Notes under the pieces: generated by a model
Databases searched by the model: none
The model's input: only the letters and a program-made list of their open reading frames with translations
Told to the model about the DNA's origin: nothing
Assembly (NCBI RefSeq): GCF_019930585.1
Contig: NZ_CP082839.1
Location: forward strand, 1,054,001 to 1,118,000
DNA length: 64,000 bases
Reading direction: 5' to 3'
From: Sphingomonas nostoxanthinifaciens
GTDB taxonomy: Bacteria; Pseudomonadota; Alphaproteobacteria; Sphingomonadales; Sphingomonadaceae
Made by a program: the position numbers and the translations under genes
In this document: positions 46,685-53,016 of the stretch, in pieces
How positions within the stretch are numbered: the stretch's first letter is position 1
How the letters are laid out: every line of letters begins with the position of its first letter

Positions 46685-47395
46685 CTATGAGGCCGGCTGA
46701 GTGTCGGCCAAAGCCAATTCCACCGCAACGGTCGCATGGATCGCGGTGGTATCGAAAATCGGGACGGGGCTATCCTCCGGTCGAAGCAGCAGCATCAATT
46801 CGGTGCACCCGAGGATCACGGCCTCGGCGCCTGCCTCAACCATCCGCGCGATGATCGCGCGATAGGCGTCTCTCGACGCCGCGACGACCTTCCCGACGAC
46901 AAGCTCCTCGTAGATCACTCGATGCACCGTTGCGCGGTCCTCGTCCGTGGGGACGATGACACTCAACCCATGCTGCTTGGCCAAGCGCCCCTTGTAGAAT
47001 TCGTGCTCCATGGTGAAGGCCGTGCCGAGGAGCCCGTCTTTCCGAATACCCGCCGCCTTAACGCGCCCTGCGGTCGGATCCGCGATATGGAGAAGCGGCA
47101 CGTTCACCGCCGCCTGAATGGCGGGCGCCATGCGATGCATGGTGTTAGTGCAGATCAGCAGCATCTCGGCACCGGCCGCCTCGAGCCGCCGGGCCGCGTC
47201 CACCATGCGAGCCGTGAGGCCGCCCCAATCACCGCGATGCTGCAGCTCCTCGATCTCGGCGAAGTTGAACGACCACAGCAGGCAGGAAGCGGAAGCTGTC
47301 GGTCCAAGCCGGTCCCGGACACCCTGGTTGAGAATGCGATAATATTCCGCCGAGCTTTCCCAACTCATTCCGCCGATCAGGCCGATCGTCAGCAT
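46685..47395 (-). CDS. Aspartate/glutamate racemase family protein
   Basis: A 236-residue PLP-independent racemase-like protein. MLTIGLIGGMSWESSAEYYR is the family start. The two catalytic cysteines lie in MLLICTNTMHRM and AVILGCTELMLLL. ATGs at 47401 and 47416 are in frame; GAGGG suits 47395 best. Members interconvert Asp/Glu enantiomers or act as hydantoin or maleate-type isomerases; the substrate is open. It lies 64 bp downstream of marR on the same strand, so marR and the racemase are probably one transcript under the operator at 47900. Confidence 0.88.
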   Translation of the reverse strand: MLTIGLIGGMSWESSAEYYRILNQGVRDRLGPTASASCLLWSFNFAEIEELQHRGDWGGLTARMVDAARRLEAAGAEMLLICTNTMHRMAPAIQAAVNVPLLHIADPTAGRVKAAGIRKDGLLGTAFTMEHEFYKGRLAKQHGLSVIVPTDEDRATVHRVIYEELVVGKVVAASRDAYRAIIARMVEAGAEAVILGCTELMLLLRPEDSPVPIFDTTAIHATVAVELALADTQPAS

Positions 47396-47459
47396 TGTCA
47401 TGTCCCTCATGTGCATTTGCGCTACGCTGCCGATGCTCGGCCTTCGCCCTTAGGACCGG

Positions 47460-47921
47460 CTAGCTTTCCATCGTCTCGGCCAGCATCCGCATCAGCCGCA
47501 CGAGATCGTCGAAATCCCGACGCTCCCAATCCTGGAACATCGCTACCGCCATGTCCTCGCGGGCTATATCGAGCGCGTCTGTCGCTGTCTTGCCCGAAGG
47601 TGTCACCACAGCCTCGTTCACGCGCTTGTCAGTTGCGCTTGGCCGCCGTTCGACCAACCCGAGCGCCTCGAGGCGTGCCACCTGGCGGCTGACCGTCGTG
47701 TAATCCCGACCTATGCCGTCGGCGAGATCGCCCACGCCGATCGGGCCGCGTCGCTCGACAGACACGAGCAGCGGGAACAGCGCGCGCTCGAGCGACAGGC
47801 CCGCCTTGGCGAGCAGTTCAGCATCGCGTTCGGGACGGTTCATCACGCCCGCGATATCGATCAGCGAACGGTGCAGCTCGGGCAGCAGCGCCTTAATATG
47901 TGCATTATGCACTTTCCTCAT
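47460..47921 (-). CDS. MarR family transcriptional regulator 1
   Basis: A 153-residue winged-helix regulator from MRKVHNAHIKALLPELHRSL. The DNA-binding part is RGPIGVGDLADGIGRDYTTV, SRQVARLEALGLVERRPSAT and the wing DKRVNEAVVT. The palindrome GTGCATTATGCAC at 47900-47912 overlaps its first codons (VHNAH), and a second copy is at 47949. Binding there would block both its own gene and the divergent mipA. The longer frame to 48068 is antisense to mipA. The ligand is likely an aromatic or phenolic compound, because the regulon includes a flavin monooxygenase; this is inference. Confidence 0.88.
   Translation of the reverse strand: MRKVHNAHIKALLPELHRSLIDIAGVMNRPERDAELLAKAGLSLERALFPLLVSVERRGPIGVGDLADGIGRDYTTVSRQVARLEALGLVERRPSATDKRVNEAVVTPSGKTATDALDIAREDMAVAMFQDWERRDFDDLVRLMRMLAETMES
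47896..47912. promoter_or_regulatory. MarR operator O1
   Basis: ATATGTGCATTATGCAC; the core GTGCATTATGCAC (47900-47912) is a perfect palindrome around one T. It lies over the start of marR. An identical 17-bp copy is O2, 49 bp away centre to centre. Confidence 0.8.
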
Positions 47922-47949
47922 TGACACCCCGACCGCCTCCCTAGATATG
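47921..47949 (+). promoter_or_regulatory. mipA promoter, -35 TTGACA
   Basis: TTGACA at 47921-47926, with GATATG at 47944-47949 as -10 at 17-bp spacing. The -10 overlaps operator O2, so a bound repressor would block RNA polymerase. TTGACA also overlaps the marR start codon on the other strand. Confidence 0.6.
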
Positions 47950-47961
47950 TGCATTATGCAC
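47945..47961. promoter_or_regulatory. MarR operator O2
   Basis: ATATGTGCATTATGCAC again, identical over 17 bp to O1, ending 13 bp before the mipA ATG. Two sites 49 bp apart allow two repressor dimers on the divergent promoter. Confidence 0.8.
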
Positions 47962-47974
47962 AAGGGAGCATGAG

Positions 47975-48895
47975 ATGGAAGAGCAAACCGAGGCCGACGT
48001 TTTGATTTGCGAAGACTGCCCCGCCGTGCCGACCATCTCTCGCCGGCGCTTGAATGGGCTGCCGGCACTCCTGGCGATATCGTTCCTCGTTGCAGGGTTA
48101 CCGAGCTGTGCCTGGGCGCAGGACGCGTCGACGGCAGGCGGTCATGCCGATGTCGCGGCTCAAGCGGGCAGCGATGCTCCGCAGGGCCCGATGAACTTCA
48201 TCGCCGTCGGGGTCGGCGTGGCGCCCAAATACCCAGGCGCGAAGAGCTACTCGCCCGTTCCGTTCATCGCCGCCGACATCACGGGCAAGGGCGTCGAAAT
48301 TTCGATGCGTGGTCCAAATATCCGCGCGAATCTGCTGGGCGATTCCGCTTTCTCCATCGGTCCCGTCGCCGGCCTCAACTTTGGTCGGAGCCAGAGCGAC
48401 GGCGGCGTCGCCCGCAACCTTCCCAAGATCAGCGATGAAATCGATCTTGGCGGCTACGCCGCCTATCGCTTTGGCGGCAATGAGCGAGGCCAAGGCCAGC
48501 TCGAGCTGGAGGTCACCGCGCTCCGGGATGTGTCCCACACGAGCAATGGCTTCACCGTCAACGGAGACGTTTCGTACATCCTCCTGCGCAGCTTTCGCTG
48601 GAGCCTCGGAGCGGACGCCAACCTGACCTATGCGAGCAGCAGGACGCTACGCACGTATTTCGGCATTACGCCCGCCTCCGCGCTGGCCTCGGGCCTGATC
48701 CCCTATTCACCAACTGGCGGCGTCCGCGACGTGGGAGGTGGCCTTACCGCGGGCTACCAGTTCAACCGCCGCTGGGGTGTCATCTCGCGGTTCGGATATA
48801 ATTATCTGGTCGGTGATGCCGCCAAGAGCCCGATCGTCAAGGCTGGATCGCGCGGCCAGCTGCTCGGCGGGGTCGCACTGTCGTACCGCTTTTGA
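47975..48895 (+). CDS. MipA/OmpV family outer-membrane protein with chimeric N-terminus
   Basis: A 306-residue protein. Residues 18-49 (VPTISRRRLNGLPALLAISF through WAQ) are a signal peptide. Then MNFIAVGVGVAPKYPGAKSY and RFGYNYLVGDAAKSPIV match the MipA/OmpV beta-barrel family. The first 13 residues, MEEQTEADVLICE, precede the signal peptide and resemble the start of the FAD monooxygenase (MEERTDIDVLICG). The DNA agrees in most positions there, including the upstream operator and -35. A native GTG start at 48026 would give a normal signal peptide. Outer-membrane role: scaffold or small-molecule passage is possible. Confidence 0.85.
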   Translation: MEEQTEADVLICEDCPAVPTISRRRLNGLPALLAISFLVAGLPSCAWAQDASTAGGHADVAAQAGSDAPQGPMNFIAVGVGVAPKYPGAKSYSPVPFIAADITGKGVEISMRGPNIRANLLGDSAFSIGPVAGLNFGRSQSDGGVARNLPKISDEIDLGGYAAYRFGGNERGQGQLELEVTALRDVSHTSNGFTVNGDVSYILLRSFRWSLGADANLTYASSRTLRTYFGITPASALASGLIPYSPTGGVRDVGGGLTAGYQFNRRWGVISRFGYNYLVGDAAKSPIVKAGSRGQLLGGVALSYRF

Positions 48896-48916
48896 ACGCT
48901 CGCGGAGGCCTCAACC

Positions 48917-49993
48917 ATGAAAAGATCCAATGGCCGACCTTGGTCACTTTCGGGCAGGATCATCCGATGGACAATTGCCGGCGCCTTAATAGCTAGCAGC
49001 GTCTTGATCGTGCCGCCTTTGTACCGGCTTATTGCTCCTGCGAAACCTTCATCCACAAGCGCATTGCGATTCACCGGCTTTATAACGCTGCCCCCGAGCA
49101 CGAGCTTCCTATCTCTGTTCGACTACATGATTGTGGAAGGCGGCTACCTGTACGCGGCGAGCATCAAGCCGGGAACCGTTTTCAAGGTACCCCTTGGCGC
49201 CGGACCGCTGCCAACGGGTTCGCAGATCAAGAACCTGGCTGGACCGCCGTGGGGGCAAGGCGTGGCATTCGATCCAGTGCGACGTCTCGGCTTCGTGTCG
49301 CGCAGCGGCGCGAACAGCGTGGATGTGTTCGATCCAGCGCGGATGCGTCTCATTCGCCGCATATCGGTGGATGCCGGTGTCGATGCGGTCGTTTTCGATC
49401 CGGTGGATCGGCTGGTGTACGCGGCGCATGGCGACACCGGCCACGCCACCCTGATCGATCCCGACAGGCTCACTATAGTCGATCGTGTTCGGTTCGATGG
49501 GAAATTGGAGTTCGCTGCTTTCGACCCAACCACCCGGCGAATCTACCAGAATCTCAATGACAGGAATGCGCTTGCCGTCGTCGATCTCGCCCGACGGCAG
49601 GTCATCAATCAGTGGCCTCTGGAAGGCTGCGAAGGACCCAGCGGTATGGCCGTCGATGCAGCACGGCATCGTTTGTTCATAGCCTGCAACAGCAACTCTC
49701 GCTTGGCAGTGTTCGATCTCGACCGGCATAGCGTCGTCGCCACGCTGCCGGTCGGCCGGGCACCGGACGTGGTCGGATACGATGCGGCGTTGCACCGCAT
49801 CTACACCACCGGCTGGTTCGGCATCATGTCGACGATCCAATCAGGCCCAGCTGGTCGCTACCGCGTGCTGGCGCCGATCCACCTCAACATCGGTGCGCAC
49901 ACGCTTGGCATCGATCCACTCACCCACCGTGTGTACATCGGCTACGCAAGCGTATTCTCCGCGCCGCGCATGGCGGTATTCGACGCCAAGTAG
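48917..49993 (+). CDS. YncE-like beta-propeller protein, membrane anchored
   Basis: A 358-residue protein. Residues 15-38 are a hydrophobic signal-anchor. Repeats of YVTN/NHL type follow: GVAFDPVRRLGFVSRSGANS, AVVFDPVDRLVYAAHGDTGH, FAAFDPTTRRIYQNLNDRNA and DVVGYDAALHRIYTTGWFGI, each about 40-45 residues, giving a seven-blade propeller. Such periplasmic proteins bind ligands or partners; no enzyme site seen. It begins 22 bp after mipA on the same strand and is likely co-transcribed. Confidence 0.82.
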   Translation: MKRSNGRPWSLSGRIIRWTIAGALIASSVLIVPPLYRLIAPAKPSSTSALRFTGFITLPPSTSFLSLFDYMIVEGGYLYAASIKPGTVFKVPLGAGPLPTGSQIKNLAGPPWGQGVAFDPVRRLGFVSRSGANSVDVFDPARMRLIRRISVDAGVDAVVFDPVDRLVYAAHGDTGHATLIDPDRLTIVDRVRFDGKLEFAAFDPTTRRIYQNLNDRNALAVVDLARRQVINQWPLEGCEGPSGMAVDAARHRLFIACNSNSRLAVFDLDRHSVVATLPVGRAPDVVGYDAALHRIYTTGWFGIMSTIQSGPAGRYRVLAPIHLNIGAHTLGIDPLTHRVYIGYASVFSAPRMAVFDAK

Positions 49994-50044
49994 ATGGTCG
50001 GCGCTCACGCCCAACTAGGGTGAGCCACCTTCGACCTATCTCGC

Positions 50045-50057
50045 GTGCATAATGCAC
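50045..50057. promoter_or_regulatory. MarR operator O3
   Basis: GTGCATAATGCAC, the exact reverse complement of O1/O2, 20 bp upstream of the TTGACA element at 50065. Same layout as O1 to TTGACA (21 bp) at the mipA promoter. Confidence 0.78.
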
Positions 50058-50064
50058 TTATCTG

Positions 50065-50093
50065 TTGACACCGGCGCTGCCGAGGGTGATGGG
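50065..50093 (+). promoter_or_regulatory. FAD monooxygenase promoter, -35 TTGACA
   Basis: TTGACA at 50065-50070. The operator O4 begins 28 bp after its first base, exactly as O2 does at the mipA promoter. The -10 is degenerate (GATGGG near 50088). Confidence 0.55.
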
Positions 50094-50105
50094 TGCACTA
50101 TGCAC
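50093..50105. promoter_or_regulatory. MarR operator O4 (one mismatch)
   Basis: GTGCACTATGCAC differs from the O1 core by T to C at one position. It lies 15 bp before the monooxygenase ATG at 50121. Weaker binding than O1-O3 is expected. Confidence 0.7.
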
Positions 50106-50120
50106 ACAGAGGAACCCGGT

Positions 50121-51629
50121 ATGGAAGAGCGAACCGACATCGACGTTTTGATCTGCGGAGCCGGCGCGGCTGGTCTGACGCTGGCCATCGACCTGGCACG
50201 GCGGGGTATCTCCTTCCGCATCATCGATCAGGCCGAACGCCCGTTCGGGGGCTCGCGGGGAAAGGGTATCCAACCCCGCACGCAGGAAGTGTTCGAGGAT
50301 CTCGGCATCATCGATCGCGTCATGGCGGCAGGCGGCGTCTACCCGCCGATGCGCGCCTATGAGGCTGACGGCAGCTTCACCGAGCGGCAGGGCTTTCAGG
50401 CACCGCCGACATCGCCGGACGTGCCCTACTTTATTTCGCTGATGATCCCGCAGTTCCTGACCGAAGACGTGATGCGCGAGCGGCTTGCCGAGCTTGGCCA
50501 TGCCGTCGAGTTCGGACACGCGCTGACCGGATTAAAGCACGGCGACGACGGGGTTAGCGCCGACATCGTATCACCGCAGGGTGAGCAGATGATTTATGCG
50601 CGCTACCTCATCGGCGCGGACGGGGGACATAGCTTCGTCAGGAACGCGCTTGGGATCGGTTTCCCCGGCAAAACACTCGGCGTGCGCGCGATCGTCGCCG
50701 ACGTTCGGCTGAGCGGGCTCAACCGCGATGCATGGCACCAGTTCAACGATGGTGACATGGAGCGGCTTGTCGCGATCTGCCCACTTGCCGGCACCAACCT
50801 GTTCCAGGTCCAGGCGCCGATCGCGCTGGAAGGCGATCCCGATCTCTCGGCTGAAGGGCTGGAACGGATGATCGCCGAACGGACCGGCAGGAGCGATATC
50901 GAACTGCGCTCGGTGTCTTGGGCGTCTGCGTACAGGATCAACGCGCGGTTGGCGGACCGCTACGGGGTTGGCCGCGTGTTCCTCATCGGCGACGCCGCCC
51001 ACGTTCATCCGCCGATGGGCGGGCAGGGCCTCAACACCGGCGTGCAGGACGCCTATAATCTGGCATGGAAGCTTGCGGCGGTCCTGGCCGGCGCGCCCGA
51101 CGATCTGCTCGAGACCTACGAGGAGGAACGACGCCCCGTCGCGGCTGATGTTCTTGGGCTTTCGACCCGTTTGCTGGCCGGCGAAAGCCGGCAAGATGCC
51201 ATGCGCCGCGGCGAGGACACCAGTCAGCTCGGTATCCGATACCCAGCATCCTCGCTTTCTCATGATAACGGAAAACGCACGGCATCCCCGCTCGCCGGCG
51301 ACAGGATGCCGGACGCAACCCTGGCGGGCGCTGCGGGCCAACCCCGCCGCCTGTTCGAGTTGCTTGCGGGAGTGCACTGGACGCTGCTGATCGCCGCGCA
51401 CGACTACCGGCCAACCGCTGCGAGGGAAGGCTTACGGGTCGTGACGGTCGGGCCTGGCGCGGAGATACGCGACGTCGCCGACCAGCTGGGTCTCAGCAAC
51501 GGCGGCGGTCTGCTCATTCGTCCCGATGGCTATGTCGGCGCGACGTTCGACAGGATCAGCCTCGATCGGGTCGACGCGTATCTGGCGAAGGCGCTTCCCG
51601 CGCGCGGGCGCGTGTTGCAGGCCGCCTGA
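50121..51629 (+). CDS. FAD-dependent aromatic hydroxylase (PHBH-type monooxygenase)
   Basis: A 502-residue group A flavin monooxygenase. FAD motif: VLICGAGAAGLTLAIDLARR. The DG motif is GADGGHSFVRNALG. The GD motif is RVFLIGDAAHVHPPMGGQGL, followed by NTGVQDAYNLAWKLA. A thioredoxin-like C-terminal domain (WTLLIAAHDYRPTAAREGL) is present, as in phenol and pentachlorophenol hydroxylases. It hydroxylates an aromatic ring using NAD(P)H. The start at 50121 (MEERTDIDVL) follows GAGGAACCCGGT. Operators O3 and O4 flank its promoter, so it belongs to the MarR 1 regulon. Confidence 0.92.
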   Translation: MEERTDIDVLICGAGAAGLTLAIDLARRGISFRIIDQAERPFGGSRGKGIQPRTQEVFEDLGIIDRVMAAGGVYPPMRAYEADGSFTERQGFQAPPTSPDVPYFISLMIPQFLTEDVMRERLAELGHAVEFGHALTGLKHGDDGVSADIVSPQGEQMIYARYLIGADGGHSFVRNALGIGFPGKTLGVRAIVADVRLSGLNRDAWHQFNDGDMERLVAICPLAGTNLFQVQAPIALEGDPDLSAEGLERMIAERTGRSDIELRSVSWASAYRINARLADRYGVGRVFLIGDAAHVHPPMGGQGLNTGVQDAYNLAWKLAAVLAGAPDDLLETYEEERRPVAADVLGLSTRLLAGESRQDAMRRGEDTSQLGIRYPASSLSHDNGKRTASPLAGDRMPDATLAGAAGQPRRLFELLAGVHWTLLIAAHDYRPTAAREGLRVVTVGPGAEIRDVADQLGLSNGGGLLIRPDGYVGATFDRISLDRVDAYLAKALPARGRVLQAA

Positions 51630-52023
51630 TGAGATACTCCCAAGCATCGATCGCGACCGGCGGCATGCCCGTCGGTCCGATCCTCCGTAACGTGCTGTTT
51701 CAGGCGCATGGAGTGATCGTCTCGGCGGCTACTGGGGCTGTTCGCCGTAAGCATCATGACGGCGGCCATGCTGGTCTCAGCTATTCGCGCCTACGTCCGA
51801 TCGGTGCGGGCGTGACAAAATGAACCTGACCGACAGCGTGTGCATGCCGGTCGGGGTCACTACCGCTCATGTGAGACGACAGCAGAACCGCAAAGACGAT
51901 TGCGGCAGCCCGCCTCTGGAGAACATAATGCCGGCCATCGACCGCAACGGCGCCCCACTGTCGGCACCCGATCAGGCTATCGGACATGATGGGGCCATCG
52001 GTCGAACCAGGAAGGAACAGCGT
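51630..52023. other. Intergenic stretch with remnants
   Basis: About 390 bp without a convincing gene. Frames of up to 64 codons follow the monooxygenase stop (QAHGVIVSAATGAVRRKHHD) but lack a ribosome site and known motif. AGGAAGGAACAGCG at 52009-52023 is the ribosome site of the following protease gene. Confidence 0.45.
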
Positions 52024-53016
52024 TTGACGGCTGTTTCGAACGTACGGGACGAGCCAAAGTCGCTTCACGCGCGGCATCGGTCGCGGTGGCTCACTCTGGG
52101 CGCGAGAGCGCCGCTGTTGGCTGCGATCGCCTGCGCCGTTGTTGCCGGGGCGCAGGCGCCGGTCGTCCCCAAGCCCCTGCGTGCGCCCGAGTTCAGGCTG
52201 TCGGGTGACCGCGTGGTTTTGCCTATCGTATGGTCCGCGAGTACCCGTTGATCGAAAGCCGGATCGCCGGCGTCAAGGGCAAGCTCATGCTTGACACCGG
52301 AATAGACCAGGCGCTGGCCGTCAACGACCATCGCGTTCCCCTGCCGCCAGGGCAGCCGATCGGAACCGGTCATTTCGGCAGCGGTCAGTCTTTCCCAATG
52401 CGCCTAAGCACGTCCGTGCCCGATGTCCAAGTGGCGCATCTGCAATTCCCGAAGGTAACGCACGTGCAAACCAAGGACGCCACGCAGCTGGAGCACATCA
52501 CGCCCGACTTCGTCGGCTGGCTCGGCTATTACTTCTGGCAGGGCTACGCGATGAAGGTCGATTATGCCCGGTCGCAAGCGACCTTCTACAAGGGTTCGCC
52601 CGAGGCTTATCTGGCCGGGGAAAAGGTCATTGGGATCATCCCGTTCGAGGTGAGCAAGCTTCCCAACCATCCATTGGTCCACGTCCGCATCGGCGGCATG
52701 GAGGCGAGGGCGGCGTTCGACACCGGCCAATATGGGGACGGTCTTCACGGATGAGGCGACGAGGCGTCAACTGCTGGCCGACGGCACGCTGAAACCGGGT
52801 TCCAAGGAGGGCTCCTACGATCTCACCGGCATCGAGTTCGGCGGAAAGCGCTATCCGGGCGTGGATCACATGGATGTTCAAACGACCCCGTTTCCTGCGG
52901 CATCGGCCATCGGCATCGACGAGCCTACGATCGTCACGATCGGCTACGGCTTCCTGCGGCAATACAAGACCGTGTGGGACTATCGCTTGAAGCGCATCTA
53001 TTTGCTGGCGCGCTGA
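52024..53016 (+). pseudogene. Exported retropepsin-like aspartic protease, two frameshifts
   Basis: TTG 52024 starts a signal peptide (ARAPLLAAIACAVVAGAQA). Near 52225 the frame moves to MVREYPLIESRIAGVKGKL, MLDTGIDQALAVNDH, the first DTG catalytic motif, then WLGYYFWQGYAMKVDYARSQ. Another DTG is in GGMEARAAFDTGQ; after a further shift near 52730 the end is GTVFTDEATRRQLLADG and YGFLRQYKTVWDYRLKRIYL to 53016. Full length is about 330 residues, a bilobal retropepsin-like secreted protease. Two single-base shifts make it inactive as read. It precedes M61 by 4 bp. Confidence 0.7.

Follow-up and report, generated by a model that had tools for sequence, protein, structure and literature searches.

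In the genome of Sphingomonas nostoxanthinifaciens, a stretch running from a MarR operator to codon 20 of an FAD monooxygenase gene is duplicated, and the mipA-yncE pair lies between the two copies, with mipA fused to a monooxygenase gene head; it is highly probable that this goes back to a duplication in this lineage and that mipA and the monooxygenase share one MarR repressor. The features of the locus within the window, i.e. the whole 64,000-nucleotide stretch of DNA that was analysed, are as follows.

47460..47921, minus strand: marR-family repressor gene, divergent from mipA (Pfam MarR PF01047, 1.7e-11, above the cut-off)
47900..48034, plus strand: promoter block 1 and 20 monooxygenase-derived codons, 5' of mipA and fused to it; homologous to block 2
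47900..47912: operator 1 of block 1, GTGCATTATGCAC, kept in orthologous loci
47921..47926, plus strand: TTGACA, the -35-like element of block 1
47949..47961: operator 2 of block 1, GTGCATTATGCAC, a palindrome, compared across orthologous loci
47975..48895, plus strand: mipA, encoding a MipA/OmpV outer-membrane protein, 306 codons from the ATG, of which the first about 20 are monooxygenase-derived (Pfam MipA, 9.1e-47)
47975..48034, plus strand: captured monooxygenase head
48026..48028, plus strand: in-frame GTG, possible original or alternative start of mipA, with the n-region MPTISRRRLNGLP
48917..49993, plus strand: YncE-like beta-propeller gene, second of the mipA-yncE pair (TIGR03866, 1.9e-15, below its cut-off)
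50045..50180, plus strand: promoter block 2 and the native monooxygenase head; homologous to block 1
50045..50057: operator 1 of block 2, GTGCATAATGCAC, retained despite the absence of marR here
50065..50070, plus strand: TTGACA of block 2
50093..50105: operator 2 of block 2, GTGCACTATGCAC, a palindrome
50121..51629, plus strand: FAD-dependent aromatic-ring monooxygenase gene, PRK06184 subfamily (NCBIfam NF004832, 3.9e-205; Pfam FAD_binding_3, 2e-78)

Extent of the duplicated promoter block

Both blocks are ~135 bp long and begin with operator 1, which is followed by TTGACA, operator 2, a ribosome site and the first codons of a gene; order and spacing are the same in the two. In agreement with the original prediction, the palindromes begin at 47900, 47949, 50045 and 50093 and the TTGACA hexamers at 47921 and 50065, and operator 2 follows the first base of TTGACA by exactly 28 bp in both blocks. 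The string ATGGAAGAGC occurs at 47975 and 50121, with no third site on either strand of the window. Zero-mismatch GTGCAYWATGCAC has four sites in the 4.3-Mb genome, all of them at the mipA/monooxygenase locus. The pairwise alignment that had been suggested gave a local score of 52.5, compared to at most 27.5 for ~2000 random window segments. Searched against its own 4.3-Mb genome, block 1 finds, besides itself, block 2 as the sole real match, with 73% identity over 115 nt and an E of 3.5e-9; the next match, with an E of 0.27, is an operator alone. The match between the blocks is far beyond chance, and chance or convergence was rejected as its source on the alignment score and the genome-wide E.

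On its left side, block 2 starts with operator 1; upstream of 50045, identity to block 1 drops to 3/12 and then 1/12, and no remnant of marR was found there. The left flank of block 1 continues into marR, where 8-10 of every 12 nucleotides match the Sphingopyxis marR. At the right side, ungapped identity per 12 nt counted from the two ATGs runs 11, 9, 11, 7, 7 and then 3, 3, 3, the last values being background (about 3) beyond approximately codon 20; the right end of the repeat (D1) lies at 48033 in block 1 and at 50179 in block 2. The likeness of the two gene starts, first described over 13 codons, is real but had been drawn too short: codons 1-12 share 31 of 36 nt, and codons 13-20 share 14 of 24, compared to a mean of 7.3 for a null drawn from in-frame window sequence (P about 0.004). 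As the head is short and translation starts favour certain codons, such a similarity might in principle arise by convergence or by selection for a good translation start, with no shared descent. We regard this as exceedingly improbable, given the 31 identical nucleotides in codons 1-12 and a homology that reaches codon 20 and spans the whole promoter with fixed spacing at the above E value of 3.5e-9.

The two blocks are 77% identical to each other, and each is 78% identical to the Sphingopyxis block. Differing from each other as much as from the block of another genus, they point either to a duplication of long standing or to copies from different lineages.

The fused head and the start of mipA

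The Pfam MipA domain is present at full length (profile positions 1-221 of 221) at residues 76-306, and the nearest MipA relatives found are 37-48% identical. A MEEQTEADVLIC start in MipA proteins elsewhere would speak against a borrowed head; it was looked for in 13 relatives and found in none (0/13), and none aligns to the first 12 residues. The 11 relatives whose starts were read have an ordinary signal peptide, with a short positive n-region followed by a hydrophobic stretch. This absence, together with the block homology, bears out the proposal that mipA is fused behind a copied promoter and gene start. Codons 13-20 encode the FAD-binding motif GAGAAGLT in the monooxygenase and EDCPAVPT in mipA, a decay that is expected because the constraint of the enzyme is gone.

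Two start codons have to be weighed for mipA. From the ATG at 47975, the n-region has 30 residues and a charge of -3, the hydrophobic stretch beginning 30 residues in, whereas from the GTG at 48026 it has 13 residues and a charge of +3, compared to 2-7 residues in other MipA proteins. These values, in addition to the decay of codons 13-20, favour a start at GTG 48026, in which case the monooxygenase codons would be an untranslated 5' leader that is in frame by accident. By contrast, AGGGAG is at a good distance before the ATG, whereas no clear ribosome site precedes the GTG; moreover, codons 1-12 are better kept than the promoter spacer (31/36 versus 9/22), and the frame is open throughout from the ATG. 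On balance, we rate a GTG start as a serious possibility, at slightly less than even chance. The GTG had been put forward as the start of a clean signal peptide, which fits its n-region but not its ribosome site, weaker than that of the ATG. It is rather doubtful that the borrowed head is translated and kept as a working leader of MipA, as either a long n-region or a translation-tuning segment; if true, it would be a new chimeric export signal built from the start of a cytoplasmic enzyme.

Ancestral arrangement and origin of the locus

Pairs of marR and monooxygenase genes were sought by scanning GTDB genomes and Sphingomonadaceae family genomes. At 15 loci in Alpha-, Beta- and Gammaproteobacteria, marR and the monooxygenase are immediate divergent neighbours, and no gene intervenes, neither mipA nor yncE nor any other. 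They include Sphingopyxis panaciterrae (L018; monooxygenase 74%, marR 76%), a genome of the same family (L094/L109), a conjugative plasmid of Sphingobium baderi (L114) and three further same-family genomes (L110, L111 and L113), in addition to Mesorhizobium, Aminobacter, Shinella, three Pseudomonas, Pigmentiphaga, Massilia and Reyranella. Genomes in which marR adjoins the monooxygenase without mipA, as the original prediction advised looking for, thus exist (L018, L094, L114 and others). A pair of ATATGTGCATNATGCACATAT-like palindromes, which are predicted binding sites, is found 46-49 bp apart in 13 of the 14 orthologous loci measured; at the 14th, the S. baderi plasmid, the second palindrome is degenerate and the automatic pick landed elsewhere. 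TTGACA sits at the same offset in L018 and L094 as in block 1. The ancestral unit is marR divergent from the FAD monooxygenase, and its TTGACA promoter is flanked by two predicted MarR operators at a distance of about 49 bp from each other. In Sphingobium fluviale (L014:5934-6001), a 74% identical monooxygenase has neither marR nor these operators and carries another palindrome, GGTGTGCCACATGGCACACC, upstream, suggesting a change of regulator.

Compared to this arrangement, the block before the monooxygenase in the window is, by synteny, the copy without marR, whereas the marR-linked, ancestral-looking block precedes mipA. The view that mipA stands behind a copied promoter is therefore at best partly right. 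In our model, the segment that begins with operator 1 and ends at codon 20 of the monooxygenase was duplicated in this lineage and the mipA-yncE pair came to lie between the two block copies; mipA, in frame with the 20-codon head, would use the promoter, operators and ribosome site of that head. The likeliest route would be a tandem duplication of the block, the monooxygenase and the adjacent mipA-yncE pair, by which operator 1 became attached to the end of yncE. A deletion would then have linked mipA to codon 20 in the first monooxygenase copy, and the trailing mipA-yncE copy would have been lost. The capture of mipA is upheld, but not the insertion by which it had been explained, since tandem duplication followed by deletion accounts for the same junctions.

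Alternatively, the two blocks might stem from two marR/monooxygenase modules, namely a resident one, which later lost its monooxygenase except for the head now joined to mipA, and one acquired horizontally, which lost marR. Block-to-block identity equal to the identity to other genera is in line with such an origin, as are the patchy distribution of the module (6 of 398 family genomes) and its occurrence on a conjugative plasmid. In the trees of both marR and the monooxygenase, however, the window falls beside Sphingopyxis L018 and within one and the same small group; this shared nearest relative argues mildly against two sources. The mipA head is also nearer to the monooxygenase head of the window (31/36) than to any other monooxygenase head (at most 28/36), a small difference that points the same way. 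An origin from two modules is hence judged unlikely, and duplication within the lineage is the preferred reading.

No intermediate arrangement was found among the genomes scanned, and no close orthologue of this mipA (best 47%). Same-genus genomes gave no close mipA or monooxygenase, and a search around the locus for leftovers of an additional mipA, yncE or monooxygenase copy was negative. Plasmids gave no close relative of either protein (best 45% for MipA and 30% for YncE), family genomes no close YncE (sole match 32%), and phage or viral contigs no MipA relative. Four viral contigs with an operator-like pair carry none of the window genes. On one viral contig (L136:4451-4511), a similar operator pair surrounds TTGACA, and its second palindrome is closely followed by ATATAATGG; none of the window genes lies nearby, and this pair probably belongs to an unrelated repressor.

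Predicted regulon and comparison with known systems

The two blocks have diverged unevenly, with 24 of 26 operator positions and 6 of 6 TTGACA positions identical, but only 9 of 22 in the 22-nt spacer. This pattern is expected if the sites are selected in both copies, and therefore points to retained co-regulation. Operator 1 of block 1 (47900-47912) is located inside the first codons of marR (VHNAH, in relatives VQDAH or VKNTH), so that the predicted DNA-binding site and the start of the protein are under joint constraint. In block 2, operator 1 is a perfect palindrome although the overlapping marR codons are gone, which argues for its retention as a predicted binding site. Backed by this operator conservation, mipA and the monooxygenase are probably co-regulated by one MarR. 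The repressor would most likely act on itself, on mipA-yncE and on the monooxygenase, and binding of a putative aromatic or electrophilic ligand would release all targets jointly. TTGACA is termed -35-like only, because a sigma-70 scan found neither a consensus -10 nor a full consensus promoter; a literature search found no publication with the exact operator strings.

The regulator contains a MarR winged helix domain (Pfam PF01047, 1.7e-11). More distant marR relatives (58% in L138, 1380-1560, and 51% in L139, 1890-2090) also have similar operator pairs, which precede a DUF4405-like membrane protein and then a zinc-type oxidoreductase in L138, and a zinc-type oxidoreductase in L139. The regulator and its operator pair therefore go with more than one cargo, and their theme looks like redox or aromatic detoxification. 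Downstream of marR in the window, on the same strand and after a gap of about 43 bp, lies an Asp/Glu racemase gene (46685-47416), which may be part of the marR operon; it does not adjoin marR in the closest relatives.

The monooxygenase is a group A FAD monooxygenase of the PRK06184 subfamily (NF004832, 682 bits versus a cut-off of 476); among proteins of solved structure, rifampin monooxygenases and polyketide oxygenases are the closest to it. Assignment as a rifampin monooxygenase was rejected, as the score for NF033145 (239.7 bits) is under the curated cut-off of 800. The next 600 bp or so past the gene (51630-52230) may be degraded sequence, as they contain nothing that is convincing as a gene; a search there for remnants of mipA or yncE was negative.

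With a copy of the donor promoter, donor codons that are absent from MipA relatives and an ancestral arrangement without mipA, the locus adds a new example to an established process, promoter capture with a 5' fusion. As a natural case of how a gene may enter a regulon already in place, it is unusually legible: copies of the donor's promoter, of its two operators and of its opening codons can still be read beside the donor itself, and selection appears to keep the operators while the remainder diverges. The predicted three-gene MarR regulon would tie an aromatic monooxygenase to an outer-membrane protein.

The components have counterparts in characterized systems. MipA of the window belongs to the same Pfam family (residues 76-306) as that of Pseudomonas aeruginosa, where MipA-MipB are polymyxin sensors (PMC10936184), but differs from it in the 20-codon foreign head. 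The counterparts of the regulator are MarR repressors encoded divergently from their target gene. Similar to MhqR of Staphylococcus aureus, a quinone-sensing MarR (PMC6798810), the regulator is a MarR protein with palindromic operators and oxidoreductase genes as likely targets; it fits no curated MarR subfamily, all NCBIfam matches being far below cut-off. Deletion-born gene fusions are also documented (PMC12803068), in which the 5' part of one gene is joined to another by loss of the intervening DNA. Here the donor monooxygenase survives intact next door, and duplication is therefore needed besides deletion. Deletion and tandem duplication are documented routes to promoter capture as well (PMC11111574): in the cases reviewed there (Anderson and Roth 1978; Li and Bock 2019), a rearrangement likewise puts a coding region under the promoter of a neighbour and leaves that promoter in two copies. 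Those cases are laboratory events seen just after selection, whereas the copies at the present locus are old and diverged, and comprise a two-operator control region together with a coding head.
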